From positions 1-64,000 of the forward strand of contig NZ_PTJD01000007.1 in NCBI RefSeq assembly GCF_002934625.1: 64,000 nt of DNA, in the 5' to 3' direction. This DNA comes from Kineococcus xinjiangensis (GTDB lineage Bacteria; Actinomycetota; Actinomycetes; Actinomycetales; Kineococcaceae). Made by a program: the position numbers and the translations under genes. Positions 29,346 to 34,939 of this stretch are shown here, in pieces; the first letter of the stretch is position 1; each line of letters opens with the position of its first letter. The notes under the pieces are model-generated. The model was not told where the DNA came from. It saw nothing but the letters and a program-made list of their open reading frames with translations, and made no database searches.

Positions 29346-29416
29346 GCGCGCCCCGCCCGCCGCCCCGTCGCGCTCCGTGTGCGGTCGCCACGCCGGTGGC
29401 GCCACCCCGGGGGAGG

Positions 29417-29445
29417 CTCAAGTCCGCGGGGCCATGTGCCGAGGA
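29417..29445 (+). promoter_or_regulatory. Sigma-28-type promoter of the flhA unit
   Basis: CTCAAG (29417-29422), 15 bases, GCCGAGGA (29438-29445). The spacing and -35 are identical to the flgB site (9348-9376), and flanking bases are also shared (GAGG before, CCGCGG after CTCAAG). Transcription near 29451 gives a leader of about 86 bases. Confidence 0.65.
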
Positions 29446-29536
29446 AGGGGAAGCCAGGACGGCGACCAGGGCCACGGACGGGCCTGTCGGACGGTGGAAC
29501 CCCCCGGGGGACCGCTGCTGGAACCGGGACGGTGCA

Positions 29537-31585
29537 GTGCAACCTCGCAACCTCAGCCACTTGGCGATGCCGATCGGCGTCGTCGGGATCGTGATGCTGC
29601 TGGTCGTGCCCCTGCCGGCGGCGCTCCTCGACTTCCTCATCGCGATCAACATCGTCTGCTCGCTGATGGCGCTGCTGATCTGCATGTACGTCAAGCGGCC
29701 CCTGGACTTCTCGGTCTTCCCGTCGCTCATCCTCGTGCTGACGCTGTTCCGACTCGGCCTCAACGTGGCCGCCACCCGGCTCGTCCTCTCCGACGGCTAC
29801 GCGGGCAAGGTCATCGACGCCTTCGGGCACTTCGTGATCTCGGGCTCGCTCGTCATCGGACTCGTCGTCTTCCTCATCCTCATCGTCATCCAGTTCGTGG
29901 TGATCACCAAGGGTGCCGAGCGCGTCGCCGAGGTCGGCGCCCGCTTCACCCTCGACGCGATGCCCGGCAAGCAGATGGCCATCGACGCAGACCTCAACGC
30001 CGGCCTGATCGACGAGGCGGAGGCCCGCCGCCGCCGCGCGGACGTCACCGCCGAGGCCGACTTCTACGGCGCCATGGACGGTGGCTCGAAGTTCGTCAAG
30101 GGCGACGCGATCGCCGCGATCATCATCACGATCATCAACCTCATCGGCGGCTTCACCATCGGCATGGTCCAGCAGGGCCTGGCGCCGGCGGAGTCCATCC
30201 AGAAGTTCGCGCTGCTCACCATCGGCGACGGCCTCGCCTCGCAGGTCCCCGCGCTGCTGCTCTCGGTGGCCACCGGCCTCATCGTGACCCGCTCCACCGG
30301 CACCGGTGACATGGGCACCGAGGTCATCACGCAGCTGTCCCAGCAGAAGGCCGCCCTGCAGATCGCCGGCGGCGCGGCCATCGTCCTCGGCCTCATCCCC
30401 AGCATGCCGAAGCTGCCCTTCTTCATCGTCGGTGTCCTCGCGTTCGTCGCCGCGTCCACCATCGCCAAGCGCGACGCCAAGGCCGCCCTCGCCGAGGCCA
30501 TCGCCCCCGCCCCGGCCGGCCCCGCCCCGGACCCGACGGAGACGTTGCTGGAGGAGATGCGCGTCGACGCCCTGGAACTCGTCCTCGCCGCCGACCTCGT
30601 CGACCTGGTCGACACCTCCAGCGGTGGCGACCTGCTCGACCGGGTGCGCGCCCTGCGCCGCAAGGTCGCCCTGGAGCTCGGCCTGGTCCTGCCCCCCGTC
30701 CGCACCCGCGACTCCCTCGACCTGCCGATGTCCACCTACGCGGTGCGCATCTCCGGGGTGGAGGTCGCCCGCGGCATGGCGCCCCCCGGCCAGGTCCTCG
30801 CCCTCGGCGACAACCTCGACGGCCTCCCCGGCCGCGCAACGGTGGAGCCGGTGTTCGGCCTCTCCAGCAAGTGGGTCCCGGGCGAGCTGCGGGCGCAGGC
30901 CCAGCTCATGGGCGCCACGGTCGTCGACCGCGCCAGCGTCCTCATCACCCACCTCGGCGAGATCGTCCGCAGCAACGCCCCGCGCCTGCTCGGCCGCGAG
31001 GACGTCCGCTCCCTCGTCGACACCCTCAAGCGCACCCACCCCGTCGTCGTCGAGGAGCTGACGCCGGCGCTGCTCACCCTCGGTGAGGTCCAGCGGATCC
31101 TGCAGGCCCTGCTCGACGAGGGCGTGCCGATCCGCGACCTCGCCCGCATCTTCGAGGCGCTGTCGCTGAAGGCGAAGCAGGGCTCCGACCTCGACGGGCT
31201 CGTCGAGTCGGCGCGCGTCGCCCTCGGCGCCGCGGTCGCCGCGGTCCACGAGCAGGACGGCGTCCTGCACGTCCTGACCCTCGACCCGTTGCTGGAGCAC
31301 TCGCTCGCCGACGCGCTCCGGCCGGGGGAGCTGGGCAGCAACCTGGCGCTCGATGCGGGGACGGTCGACCACCTCGTCACCGAGGCCAGCACCTGCCTCG
31401 CCCGCGTCGAGCAGGCCGGCCTGCAGGCGGTCCTCGTCTGCGCCCCGTCGCTGCGGGCCCCGCTGCGGCGCCTGCTGAAGGTCGCGCTGCCGCGACTGCA
31501 CGTCCTCTCGTACAGCGAAGTCAGCTCCCACGCCCGCATCGAGACCATCGGATCGGTGAAGAGTGTCCACGCACTTGCTTCTTGA
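29537..31585 (+). CDS. flhA: Flagellar export-gate protein FlhA
   Basis: A 682-residue protein, normal for the family. The N-terminal half has about eight membrane helices (MPIGVVGIVMLLVVPLPAAL onward). The FHIPEP-family signature RFTLDAMPGKQMAIDAD is at residues 136-152. The C-terminal half (from about 335) is the cytosolic docking domain for chaperone-substrate complexes. The start is GTG 29537. An in-frame extension upstream to 29396 runs through the promoter and is rejected. The 3' end overlaps the next gene by 23 bases. Confidence 0.95.
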   Translation: MQPRNLSHLAMPIGVVGIVMLLVVPLPAALLDFLIAINIVCSLMALLICMYVKRPLDFSVFPSLILVLTLFRLGLNVAATRLVLSDGYAGKVIDAFGHFVISGSLVIGLVVFLILIVIQFVVITKGAERVAEVGARFTLDAMPGKQMAIDADLNAGLIDEAEARRRRADVTAEADFYGAMDGGSKFVKGDAIAAIIITIINLIGGFTIGMVQQGLAPAESIQKFALLTIGDGLASQVPALLLSVATGLIVTRSTGTGDMGTEVITQLSQQKAALQIAGGAAIVLGLIPSMPKLPFFIVGVLAFVAASTIAKRDAKAALAEAIAPAPAGPAPDPTETLLEEMRVDALELVLAADLVDLVDTSSGGDLLDRVRALRRKVALELGLVLPPVRTRDSLDLPMSTYAVRISGVEVARGMAPPGQVLALGDNLDGLPGRATVEPVFGLSSKWVPGELRAQAQLMGATVVDRASVLITHLGEIVRSNAPRLLGREDVRSLVDTLKRTHPVVVEELTPALLTLGEVQRILQALLDEGVPIRDLARIFEALSLKAKQGSDLDGLVESARVALGAAVAAVHEQDGVLHVLTLDPLLEHSLADALRPGELGSNLALDAGTVDHLVTEASTCLARVEQAGLQAVLVCAPSLRAPLRRLLKVALPRLHVLSYSEVSSHARIETIGSVKSVHALAS

Positions 31586-34193
31586 AGGTTCTGACCTCGA
31601 CGCCCTCCTCGCCCAGGCGCGCGAGGAGCACGGTGAGGGGGCACGCATCGTCCGTGCCGAGCGCGTCCGCTCCGGCGGCGTGGGCGGCTTCTTCGCGAAG
31701 GAGCACTACCAGGTGACCGTCGAGGTTCCCGAGCCGGGCGAGATCCTGGCTCCGCTGTCGGCCCAGGCCGCCGAGGCCGCACGGCCCGCCGCGCCCGCCG
31801 TCCCGGCCCCCGTCCAGCAGGCCCCCGTCCAGCAGGCGCCCGTCCAGCAGGCGCCCGTCCAGCAGGCGCCCGTGCACCAGGTGCCGGCACCGCGCAGCCT
31901 CGGTGACCTGCTCGCCGCCGCCGACGCGGCCGACGGCTCCGAGCGCCTCGCCTCCCTCGTGGGTGTGGTCGCGGCGCCGGCCGCCGAGTCCGGGGAACAG
32001 CCCTCCGCCCGCGCCCTCGCCGCCGCCCGCTTCGCGGCCGCGGCGGAGTCGGTGGCGCCCGTCCTCCCCGCCCCCGTCGCCGGCGGCTTCACCGCCGCCG
32101 CCTTCCGCGGCACTCCCGAGGCTCCGGCCCCCGCGATGCCGGCCCCCGCGATGCCGGCCCCCGCGATGCCGGCCCCCGCGATGCCGGCCCCCGCGATGCC
32201 GGCCCCCGTGGCCGCCGCTCCCGTGGCCGCTGCTCCCTCCGTCCCCGCCCCCGTGCTCGCGGCCGCGGCTGCGGCCGAGGCGCCGCGCGTCACCACCCCG
32301 CACCGCCCCATCTCCACCGAGGGCGACGACTTCGCCTTCACCCTGGCCACCATGCGCCGGCACCTGACCGACGGAATGCCTTCTTCTGCACCAAACGTCA
32401 CTCCCGCGGTACCCTCCGTTACGGCCGAGCAGGCGGCTCCCGCGGAGGCAGCGCCCTCCGCGGAACGGCCCCTCCCGGTCGACCCCGCGCTCTCCGCAGC
32501 GCAGGCGGGCACCGACCTGCCGGCCGCCGGTGGCCGGCACCCCGAGGAGGACGCCGTGACCGAGCCCAACGGAACCCCGATCCAGTACGCCTCCAAGCAC
32601 GGCCTCGCGGGAGAGCAGGAGCGCACCTTCCCGACGACCGGCCTCGGCTACGCCACCGCCGAGGAGGCCGCCGCTCCCACCCCGGAGCAGCCCGTCGCGG
32701 CCCGCGAGCAGGAGGCCGCCCAGCCGGCGCCCGCGCACGTCGAGGTGGCGCCCGAGGCGCCCCGTGCCGCGCACGCCGCCCCCGTGGCGCAGCCTGAACC
32801 GGCCGCCGAGCCCGCCCTGCCCGTCGCCGCGCACTCCGCTCCGGAGGCGGCCCCCGAGCAGGTCGAGCCGCAGGCCTCCGTGCCCGCGCACGCCGCCCCG
32901 CCGCAGCCCGCCCAGCAGGAGCCGATCGTTCAGCAGGAGCCGATCATTCAGCAGCAGCCGCAGGTCGCCCAGCAGGCTCCGCAGGAGCAGGCCCCCCAGC
33001 AGCCCGCACAGGAGCAGCCGGTGGCGCAGGCCCCGCAGGAGCAGCCGGTGGCGCAGGCCCCGCAGGAGCAGGCCCCGCAGCCGGTGGTGCAGCAGCCGGT
33101 GGTGCAGCAGCCGGTGGTGCAGCAGCCGGTGGTGCAGCAGCCTGCCGTCCAGTACGCCCCGCAGCCCGTGGTGCAGCAGCCCGTCGTGCAGCAGCCCGTC
33201 GCCCCGCAGCCCGTGGTGCAGCCGGAGCCTGCCGTCCACTACGCCCCGCAGCCCGTGGTGCAGCAGCCCGTCGCCCCGCAGCCCGTGGTGCAGCCGGAGC
33301 CTGCCGTCCACTACGCCCCGCAGCCGGTGGTGCAGCAGCCCCAGGTCGTGCAGCCGGCGCCCGTCGTGGTGCAGCCGGCTCCCGTGATCATCCAGCCCGC
33401 TCCCGTGGTGGTGCAGCCCGTCGCGCACCAGGAGGCGCTGTCCGCGGCTCCCGTCGCCGCCCCCGTCGCGGTGTCGTCGCAGCAGCCCGCCCCGGCCGTC
33501 GTCGGCGACCACGCAGCTTCCGGCGCGCAGATCATGGATTCGTCGTACGGTAATGGCGTGACTACCTACAGCGAGACTTCTGCGCCGACCGGGCACGCTG
33601 CCGCTGCTGAGCACATCGACCCCCAGGCCGCCATCCGCATCGCCCAGGACATCCCCGTCCCGGCTCCGCTGCGCGCCGGCCCGGGTGACCTCGTGCTCGT
33701 CGTGGGCGAGCCCGACGCGGTCGTGACGGCCGGCCTCCTGGTGGCCGACGAGATCGGCTCCGACACCCCCGTGGTCATCGGCCGCGCCGAGGGCCACACC
33801 AGCGTGGGTGCAGGCGACCTCGCCGCCCGCCTGGAGCAGGCCCGCGGCTGGAGCGCACCCCTCACGGTGACGATCCCCGCACGGCCCACCGCGGCCGACG
33901 CCCAGCGTGCCGCCCGCTTCGCCGCCGAGTTCCGCCCCACCGCGGTCGTCGTCGCCGTCGACGCCACCCGCCGTGCCAGCACCGCCACCGAGCTCGTGAC
34001 CGCGCTGCGCCAGGCCGGCGCGCCCGTGGAGCGGGTCGCGGTGACGCGCTCGGTGGAGAGCACCGACCCGCTGGACGTGCTGTCCCTGGGCGTGCCCGTG
34101 GGCTACCTCGACGGGCGTCCCGCGACGACGGGCGCATGGGTGGGGCTGCTCCTCGACGCGGCGCTGCCCGCGGACGGCACGGCAGCCCGGTGA
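31563..34193 (+). CDS. FlhF-like flagellar protein with Gln/Pro repeat linker and no P-loop
   Basis: An 876-residue protein. Residues 1-60 match the FlhF N-terminus (LDALLAQAREEHGEGARIVR, then ERVRSGGVGGFFAKEHYQVT). Residues about 60-660 are extreme Ala/Pro/Gln/Val low complexity with tandem repeats (APVQQ x5, AMPAP x5, VVQQP, and a 24-residue unit twice). Residues about 685-876 resemble the SRP-type GTPase fold of FlhF. The P-loop is missing (LVLVVGEPDAVVTAGLLVAD where GxxxxGKT is expected), and the end keeps a VPVGYLDG segment. FlhF normally sets flagellar number and place. This form probably does not hydrolyse GTP. Start GTG 31563 overlaps flhA. Confidence 0.8.
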   Translation: MSTHLLLEGSDLDALLAQAREEHGEGARIVRAERVRSGGVGGFFAKEHYQVTVEVPEPGEILAPLSAQAAEAARPAAPAVPAPVQQAPVQQAPVQQAPVQQAPVHQVPAPRSLGDLLAAADAADGSERLASLVGVVAAPAAESGEQPSARALAAARFAAAAESVAPVLPAPVAGGFTAAAFRGTPEAPAPAMPAPAMPAPAMPAPAMPAPAMPAPVAAAPVAAAPSVPAPVLAAAAAAEAPRVTTPHRPISTEGDDFAFTLATMRRHLTDGMPSSAPNVTPAVPSVTAEQAAPAEAAPSAERPLPVDPALSAAQAGTDLPAAGGRHPEEDAVTEPNGTPIQYASKHGLAGEQERTFPTTGLGYATAEEAAAPTPEQPVAAREQEAAQPAPAHVEVAPEAPRAAHAAPVAQPEPAAEPALPVAAHSAPEAAPEQVEPQASVPAHAAPPQPAQQEPIVQQEPIIQQQPQVAQQAPQEQAPQQPAQEQPVAQAPQEQPVAQAPQEQAPQPVVQQPVVQQPVVQQPVVQQPAVQYAPQPVVQQPVVQQPVAPQPVVQPEPAVHYAPQPVVQQPVAPQPVVQPEPAVHYAPQPVVQQPQVVQPAPVVVQPAPVIIQPAPVVVQPVAHQEALSAAPVAAPVAVSSQQPAPAVVGDHAASGAQIMDSSYGNGVTTYSETSAPTGHAAAAEHIDPQAAIRIAQDIPVPAPLRAGPGDLVLVVGEPDAVVTAGLLVADEIGSDTPVVIGRAEGHTSVGAGDLAARLEQARGWSAPLTVTIPARPTAADAQRAARFAAEFRPTAVVVAVDATRRASTATELVTALRQAGAPVERVAVTRSVESTDPLDVLSLGVPVGYLDGRPATTGAWVGLLLDAALPADGTAAR
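31806..31880 (+). repeat. 15-bp tandem repeat encoding APVQQ
   Basis: About five near-identical 15-base units in the flhF-like gene encode (APVQQ)n ending in APVHQ. Third-position differences (CCC versus GCG) show partial divergence. Length changes in multiples of 15 keep the frame. Confidence 0.85.
32133..32207 (+). repeat. 15-bp tandem repeat encoding AMPAP, five copies
   Basis: Five identical copies of a 15-base unit (GCGATGCCGGCCCCC) run from 32133 to 32207 in the flhF-like gene. Identity at every third position suggests recent expansion by slippage. Confidence 0.95.
33081..33332 (+). repeat. Nested repeats in the Gln/Pro linker
   Basis: Four copies of a 15-base unit encoding PVVQQ (33081-33140) are followed by a 72-base unit present twice in tandem (33189-33260 and 33261-33332), ending in HYAPQ. 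The two 72-base copies differ at only the last bases. Both periods are multiples of three. Confidence 0.92.
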
Positions 34194-34939
34194 ACAAGGG
34201 GGCGCGGGTCGCGGGCTGGACGGACTCGTGGCCCGCCGTCAACGCCCGGGTCACCGTGACGATGAGCTTCGGCGAGTCGGCCCCCGACGTCGAGGCACCG
34301 ACGCGCGTGGAGGACGTCGAGGACGACACGCTGATCGTCGCCGCGCCCCGCTTCTCCGGTGACCTCGACTGGGCCGGGCCCGGCCGCGGCGTCCTCCTGA
34401 CCTGGGGCAGCGATCGCGGTGCGTGCTACCAGCGCCTCGAGATCGTGGACGTCCAGCGCTCGCCGATCCCGGTGTGGCGGCTGGCGCCCCTCGCCCCCGT
34501 CACCACCGAGCAGCGGCGCCGCTACGTCCGGGCCGCCCTGACGGGTGTCGCGGTGCTGAACCCGGTGCCGGTGCCCGTTCCGGTGCAGGCGCTGCAGTCC
34601 CGGGGCCAGCGTGCCGATGTCCAGGAGGGGGCCGTCCCCGGCGGACCGCTGAAGCCGGTGCGCGCACGGTTCGTCGACCTCAGTGAGGGCGGCGCCCGTG
34701 TCGTCCTGGTCGAGGAGGGTTACCTGCCCGCAGGAACGCAGGCGGAGCTGCGGGCGACCCTCGACGGTGTCGAGGTCGCCCAGCTCGTCACCGTCCTGCG
34801 CACCCGGCCGGCCGCGCACGCCGCGGACGGCCTGCTCGAAGCCATCCTGAACTTCGTGGAACCCGTCAAGCAGGCGGACCACCTGCGCCGCTACGTGCTG
34901 CGCCTCCAGATCGAGAACCGACGCAAAGGGGTCCGATGA
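34190..34939 (+). CDS. PilZ-domain c-di-GMP receptor, YcgR-like
   Basis: A 249-residue protein. Residues about 15-100 form a YcgR-type N-terminal beta domain (VTVTMSFGES; DTLIVAAPRFSGDL; GRGVLLTWGSDRGACYQRLE). The PilZ domain begins at QRRRYVR, giving the RxxxR motif (R110-R114), followed by DLSEGG, the DxSxxG motif (163-168). Both c-di-GMP binding motifs are intact. In other bacteria YcgR proteins brake the motor by binding MotA, FliG or FliM. It starts at GTG 34190 inside the stop of the flhF-like gene and overlaps the next gene (ATGA). Confidence 0.92.
   Translation: MNKGARVAGWTDSWPAVNARVTVTMSFGESAPDVEAPTRVEDVEDDTLIVAAPRFSGDLDWAGPGRGVLLTWGSDRGACYQRLEIVDVQRSPIPVWRLAPLAPVTTEQRRRYVRAALTGVAVLNPVPVPVPVQALQSRGQRADVQEGAVPGGPLKPVRARFVDLSEGGARVVLVEEGYLPAGTQAELRATLDGVEVAQLVTVLRTRPAAHAADGLLEAILNFVEPVKQADHLRRYVLRLQIENRRKGVR

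Follow-up and report, generated by a model that had tools for sequence, protein, structure and literature searches.

The 64,000-nucleotide stretch of Kineococcus xinjiangensis DNA analysed here (the window) carries, behind flhA, a long open reading frame that had been read as FlhF-like at both ends and devoid of the P-loop. Is this gene a descendant of flhF, and if so, what could an FlhF without a GTP-binding site still do for the flagellum? On balance, we consider it rather probable that the gene is an actinomycete flhF descendant turned pseudo-GTPase, most likely acting as a nucleotide-independent tether. Its ancestry, flhF position, FliG-interaction-type domain, NG fold, motif loss and the absence of FlhG are supported by comparison of sequences and predicted structures; FliG binding, a landmark and an effect on flagella we infer.

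Gene position and ancestry

The ORF (31563-34193, + strand, 876 codons) has a GTG start codon and overlaps by 23 bases with the 3' end of the flhA ORF (29396-31585, +; PF00771, E=7.6e-247 at 29588-31531). The same arrangement was found in named genomes, where the best 80 of 224 relatives, detected by two peptide patterns (one per end domain), were kept as 79 loci. The window and 76 of these 79 loci have the gene in the flhF-type position directly 3' of flhA, and in 75 of the 76 the matched end of flhA overlaps the start of the relative; in the other three, the C-terminal domain starts at most about 610 bases from the contig start. Canonical flhF is likewise preceded directly by flhA in 13 of 14 loci, and flhG then follows in all 14, as counted with a model built from 4 of these loci. 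Given the direct adjacency and the overlapping ends, production of the protein, which we call pseudo-FlhF, is probably coupled to that of FlhA. The downstream neighbour in the window is a YcgR/PilZ-domain gene (34136-34939, +; PF07238, 1.3e-6; PF12945, 5.5e-6). We rejected it as a constant neighbour, since a same-strand PilZ match was near or overlapping in 12 of the 79 loci, in 3 of them within the distance filter.

Among family models, TIGR03499 (FlhF, NCBIfam) matched residues 8-101 with E=5.3e-7 and 29.9 bits, against an equivalog cut-off of 174.15 bits. The Pfam scan yielded no family for the 876-aa protein, and for the C-terminus neither Pfam nor NCBIfam contributed a matching model. PF00448 matched two other genes of the genome, with Walker A sequences GVNGTGKT and GLQGAGKT, which we take to be the FtsY- and Ffh-like genes. 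A complete second flhF, which would have spoken against the original prediction, was found neither by PF00448, which gave these two genes only, nor by the FlhF cut-off (our genome searches scored just the 4 to 8 top candidates of each genome). This cut-off was reached by none of 394 genomes of the window's class; within the phylum, canonical FlhF was present in 14 of 296 genomes, all outside that class.

The N-terminus (residues 1-57; 31563-31733, +) resembles the FliG-interaction domain of FlhF. Its profile matched canonical FlhF with E=7.1e-10 in profile-profile comparison. In the PDB, it was matched best (E=0.011, 31 columns) by the FlhF fragment 9en1, presumably the structure from PMC11236974. 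Matches to HIV protease, integrase and polymerase ranked below 9en1 and were taken as noise. In a relative from Planobispora, the N-terminus was modelled as beta-alpha-beta-beta, i.e. three strands and one helix, the make-up given for the FliG-interaction domain of FlhF in PMC11236974. Judged by sequence and predicted fold only, pseudo-FlhF thus appears to possess this domain, and the conservation of a matching N-terminus points to the C-ring.

For the C-terminal domain (residues 685-876; 33615-34190, +), the relationship had to be sought at profile level. A profile of 30 rows aligned with the NG domain of canonical FlhF (14 rows) over 155 columns with E=2.7e-5, co-linearly through the G domain. 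Against untrimmed profiles it gave 4.1e-5 for canonical FlhF, 0.026 for Ffh/FtsY and 0.34 for FlhG, so that the closest SRP GTPase by profile is FlhF and not Ffh/FtsY. A different alignment of 51 rows again matched canonical FlhF (score 34.6, E=2.1e-4), while 60 column-shuffled decoys reached at most 19.6, Ffh/FtsY 18.7 and the reversed template 15.3; the hhalign probabilities of the two comparisons were moderate (74 and 46). Searching the PDB with the C-domain alignment as a profile returned unrelated or designed proteins only, at E of 0.65 and above, from which it follows that the relation is visible by profile-profile and fold comparison only. A single-sequence PDB search was discarded, as its matches were at chance level (e.g. 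isochorismatase, E=0.018).

Structure prediction for residues 675-876 gave an SRP-GTPase NG fold (mean pLDDT 85.8, pTM 0.84), where an unrelated fold would have told against the original prediction. Its top Foldseek match was FlhF of S. putrefaciens (8r9r, E=8.8e-6), followed by SRP54/FtsY chains from 1.4e-5; a second aligner placed Ffh ahead (Z 14.9) of FlhF (13.2). With the C-domain modelled for the Planobispora relative (pLDDT 92-98 as block means), FlhF ranked third by Foldseek; by Z, 8r9r came first (17.7, 3.3 A, 213 residues), tied with FtsY (16.9). In the predicted models, then, the domain has the NG fold, and by fold alone FlhF is no nearer to it than Ffh/FtsY are. What the fold identifies is an SRP GTPase; the assignment to FlhF comes from the profiles, the N-terminus and the gene order. 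Taken together, these comparisons support the proposed FlhF ancestry.

Nucleotide motifs and FlhG

In the profile alignments, the segment VGEPDAVVTAG (residues 714-724; 33702-33734, +), where the original prediction had located the lost P-loop, falls on the canonical FlhF P-loop, whose lysine/threonine part coincides with a gap of two residues. Walker A (GxxxxGK[ST]), DTAG and [TN]KxD were each absent from the C-domain in all 79 named loci and in all 30 rows of our first set, some genomes being common to both, so that the suspected generality of the P-loop loss in flagellated actinomycetes holds for these relatives. All three motifs were found in 14 of 14 canonical FlhF proteins, whose ORFs had been selected by their Walker A, one from each of 14 loci. 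By these strict patterns, pseudo-FlhF lacks the GTP-binding motifs G1, G3 and G4 of FlhF; looser G1, G2 and G3 patterns matched one locus each among the 79 (L150, L094 and L153). Judging from the lost motifs, the GTPase function is presumably dead. The domain has a conserved core nonetheless: across 51 rows, six columns do not vary, including two glycines in and just behind the first strand, and a DATRK segment hardly varies. A 'TTK' segment, at first thought to be retained, was dropped, since the pattern occurs in 74 of 79 relatives but in none of 14 canonical FlhF proteins.

The partner ATPase FlhG was sought genome-wide with a full-length query (FlhG of L076, genome G409). It was present in 14 of 14 genomes with canonical FlhF (1e-196 in the query's own genome, 1.3e-78 to 2.1e-112 in the 13 others) and in none of 30 genomes with pseudo-FlhF. 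The best value among these 30 carriers, 1.4e-12, is background, at the level of the generic ParA/MinD proteins seen as second matches in canonical genomes. For the window's genome, which by this search does not contain FlhG, the best match was 1.7e-9; the matches lay on other contigs and none on the flagellar one. The 79 named loci, with flanks of 6 kb at most, yielded no FlhG-like ORF either, and a 32-residue FlhG probe, used without a positive control, gave no match.

Pseudo-FlhF thus has in common with FlhF (TIGR03499; 8r9r, 2px0, 9en1), the third SRP-type GTPase, an N-terminal FliG-interaction-type domain, a low-complexity linker, the predicted NG fold and the place behind flhA. It differs in the missing Walker A, DTAG and [TN]KxD, in the lack of a detectable FlhG in the genome, in a linker of up to several hundred residues and in its score (29.9 vs 174 bits). 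With Ffh and FtsY it shares the NG fold (Z up to 14.9); however, these are separate genes of the same genome, and their profile match is much weaker than that of FlhF.

Distribution, selection and the linker

The C-domain was found in all 12 genomes searched within the window's GTDB family, the window's own included, although one copy, at the end of a contig, is partial. Even sampling of the class gave 394 genomes, of which 51 possess flhA and 30 have pseudo-FlhF by a profile of 12 relatives (the window's genome is counted in both); coordinate comparison showed that all 30 possess flhA and that the gene adjoins it. For the 21 genomes that have flhA but gave no profile match, the region following flhA yielded one more clear case (G224) and a doubtful N-terminus in G033 (E=0.005), bringing the total to 31 of 51 sampled flhA-bearing genomes. 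In 19 of the 51 (L195-L215), no such gene was found behind flhA, and flagella can therefore apparently do without pseudo-FlhF. The gene was not found in any of the 14 sampled genomes of one family (f35). Two genomes of one and the same family, G023 (L216; frame of 278 aa) and G046 (L217; 250 aa), have the N-terminal domain and linker only, the 4 kb behind flhA showing no C-domain; this form is a further reduction step.

The named relatives come from Planobispora, Planomonospora, Actinomadura, Spirillospora, Actinoplanes and kin, Dactylosporangium, Catenuloplanes, Motilibacter, Actinosynnema, Actinotalea, Cellulomonas and some metagenome bins; among viral contigs, none of 10 pattern matches was a relative. 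Both flhA and pseudo-FlhF are carried by Planobispora and Planomonospora (L086-L093), which are presumably Streptosporangiales. A survey (PMC10746217) has Streptosporangiales without flagella and FlhF lacking in later actinobacterial classes, Actinomycetia among them. An FlhF relative is present in 31 of 51 flhA-bearing genomes of the window's class, where the survey has FlhF lacking; the loss of its defining motifs has kept it hidden. We found no published account of the gene in the open-licence literature.

A tree of FlhA comprised 54 rows (the window, 20 more carriers, 19 genomes without the gene, the doubtful G033 and 13 canonical genomes); it was built by a quick method with SH-aLRT support only and is unrooted, and some long branches make its details unsure. 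The canonical rows lie on one side of a branch (support 100) and all others opposite. The label 'absent' needs at least three changes, two of them forced by strong branches, and the shortened form needs one; for the absences, this amounts to about three separate losses of pseudo-FlhF. If the root is on the canonical side, the tree fits one change from GTPase to pseudo-GTPase, followed by losses. A metagenome bin labelled Acidimicrobiia (L159) carries the pseudo form as well. If its label is right, the GTP site was lost before the class arose. The survey places FlgF/FlgG loss and a chemosensory switch in the last ancestor shared by Acidimicrobiia, Nitriliruptoria and Actinomycetia (PMC10746217), and the change in FlhF may belong there as well.

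The N-terminus is under strong purifying selection, with a median dN/dS of 0.03, and the C-domain under moderate purifying selection, with a median of 0.20 (range 0.06-0.89), based on 264 non-independent pairs with equal-length C-domains of 78-97 % identity; the N-terminus is thus the most constrained part of pseudo-FlhF.

Between the two domains lies a repetitive linker (residues 61-684; 31743-33614, +) that contains tandem repeats (15 to 84 bp). The original prediction had called it a Gln/Pro region, which is half right: Pro (18.4 %) and Gln (12.5 %) are indeed abundant among its 624 residues, but so are Ala (24.7 %) and Val (12.0 %). Its great length, too, was correctly described for the window but is not general, as linkers range from 42 to 599 residues among 29 relatives and reach about 760 in G401 and about 835 in Actinosynnema pretiosum (L158). 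Over such a range, the mechanism is unlikely to depend at its core on a long reach of fixed length. Very long forms occur in A. pretiosum (L158 3229-6486; 1086 aa from N-terminal domain to stop), Dactylosporangium vinaceum (L150 3820-6624; 935 aa) and G401 (L218; frame of 1019 aa), and their recurrence suggests that length probably grew more than once.

Within the linker, one conserved, non-repetitive motif stands out, STEGDDFAFTLATMRR (motif 2, residues 251-266; 32313-32360, +), with the consensus STE..FA..LA.L. In a matrix test, 0 of 500 shuffles were equally good in 13 of 17 linkers, that of the window included; its columns were picked on an alignment with the window, the window row was excluded from the scoring matrix, and some of the linkers may be close kin of matrix rows. 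The motif failed in L035 (67 of 500) and was weaker in L019, L043 and L033 (2, 6 and 5 of 500). We are unsure of motif 1 (residues 115-127; 31905-31943, +), for which 2 of 500 shuffles were equally good in the window; among 17 linkers, 0 of 500 was obtained in only 4, and the remaining ones gave 2 to 126.

A possible tether and its alternatives

With both ends kept and both the nucleotide motifs and FlhG gone, pseudo-FlhF has the look of a pure tether. Its N-terminus would grip FliG, as in Shewanella FlhF, and nascent FliF-FliG complexes would be held thereby. The pseudo-NG domain would dock on a site determinant or landmark (a DivIVA-type protein would be no more than a guess), and the linker with its STE..FA..LA.L motif would give reach and perhaps a further docking point. 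Having neither a GTP cycle nor FlhG, such a system would possess no reset switch of that kind; flagella might be placed by capture alone, and their number set by other means. In Shewanella, according to PMC11236974, FliG is bound by the N-terminus of FlhF, and HubP by its NG domain, with or without regard to the nucleotide state. In P. aeruginosa, the interaction of FlhF with FliG is regulated by GTP binding (PMC12713375), and a GTP-free tether would therefore differ from that FlhF. If the tether reading is right, a landmark-to-FliG chain would also be shared with TipN/TipF of Caulobacter, as these are described in PMC11236974, although those are other proteins. Against the tether we counted that the C-domain is only moderately constrained, with dN/dS up to 0.89, that this domain is missing in two genomes which keep the N-terminus, and that 19 of the 51 flhA-bearing genomes show no pseudo-FlhF.

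The main rival is a FliG chaperone with a decaying tail, in which the N-terminal domain alone would matter, stabilising FliG or keeping it off FliM/FliN, the linker and C-domain being relics. It seems unlikely to us. The far stronger constraint on the N-terminus (0.03 vs 0.20) and the two genomes with N-terminus and linker but without C-domain agree with it, as does the report that FliG is stable in E. coli only with FlhF (PMC11236974). On the other hand, the C-domain, with its conserved core, is under purifying selection overall, the linker contains the conserved motif 2, and the C-domain occurs in all 79 named loci, a set that favours its presence because one of the two search patterns lies inside it.

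A conserved core of six invariant columns and a near-invariant DATRK is also more than a bare scaffold might need, and could mean that the C-domain has kept a remodelled binding site, for a nucleotide or some other ligand, and uses it as a switch. We regard this as improbable: Walker A, DTAG and [TN]KxD are gone from all 79 loci, the looser G1, G2 and G3 patterns match a single locus each, and FlhG, the GTPase activator, was not found in the 30 carrier genomes. Slightly less probable still is a scaffold that starts at the export gate, as the original prediction tentatively had it, and extends from FlhA along the long linker as far as the cell pole. The idea draws on the gene order, as flhA immediately precedes the gene in 76 of 79 loci and overlaps it in 75 of these; however, the same order is seen (13 of 14) for canonical FlhF, which is known to partner FliG, and linkers of 42 to about 835 residues speak against a fixed reach. 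Gene order behind flhA is thus all that this proposal retains.

Returning to the tether, a wider picture can be drawn that we hold to be quite possible, if short of probable. Flagellated actinomycetes would place their flagella with a GTP-free, FlhG-free FlhF, having discarded the switch and kept the tether; the pseudo-GTPase domain would be rewired to a new landmark and the linker would serve as an extra docking arm. The change would probably have accompanied the published changes in rod and chemosensory system, in the ancestor shared by Acidimicrobiia, Nitriliruptoria and Actinomycetia. If true, this would be a natural separation of function within FlhF. The presumed FliG-gripping domain and the predicted fold survive while the motifs and FlhG are gone, offering a natural experiment on the role of GTP hydrolysis by FlhF. 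We know of no other candidate for flagellar placement in zoospore-forming actinomycetes, for which pseudo-FlhF is now a candidate. Polar tufts are recorded in a family description of Micromonosporaceae (PMC6113628).
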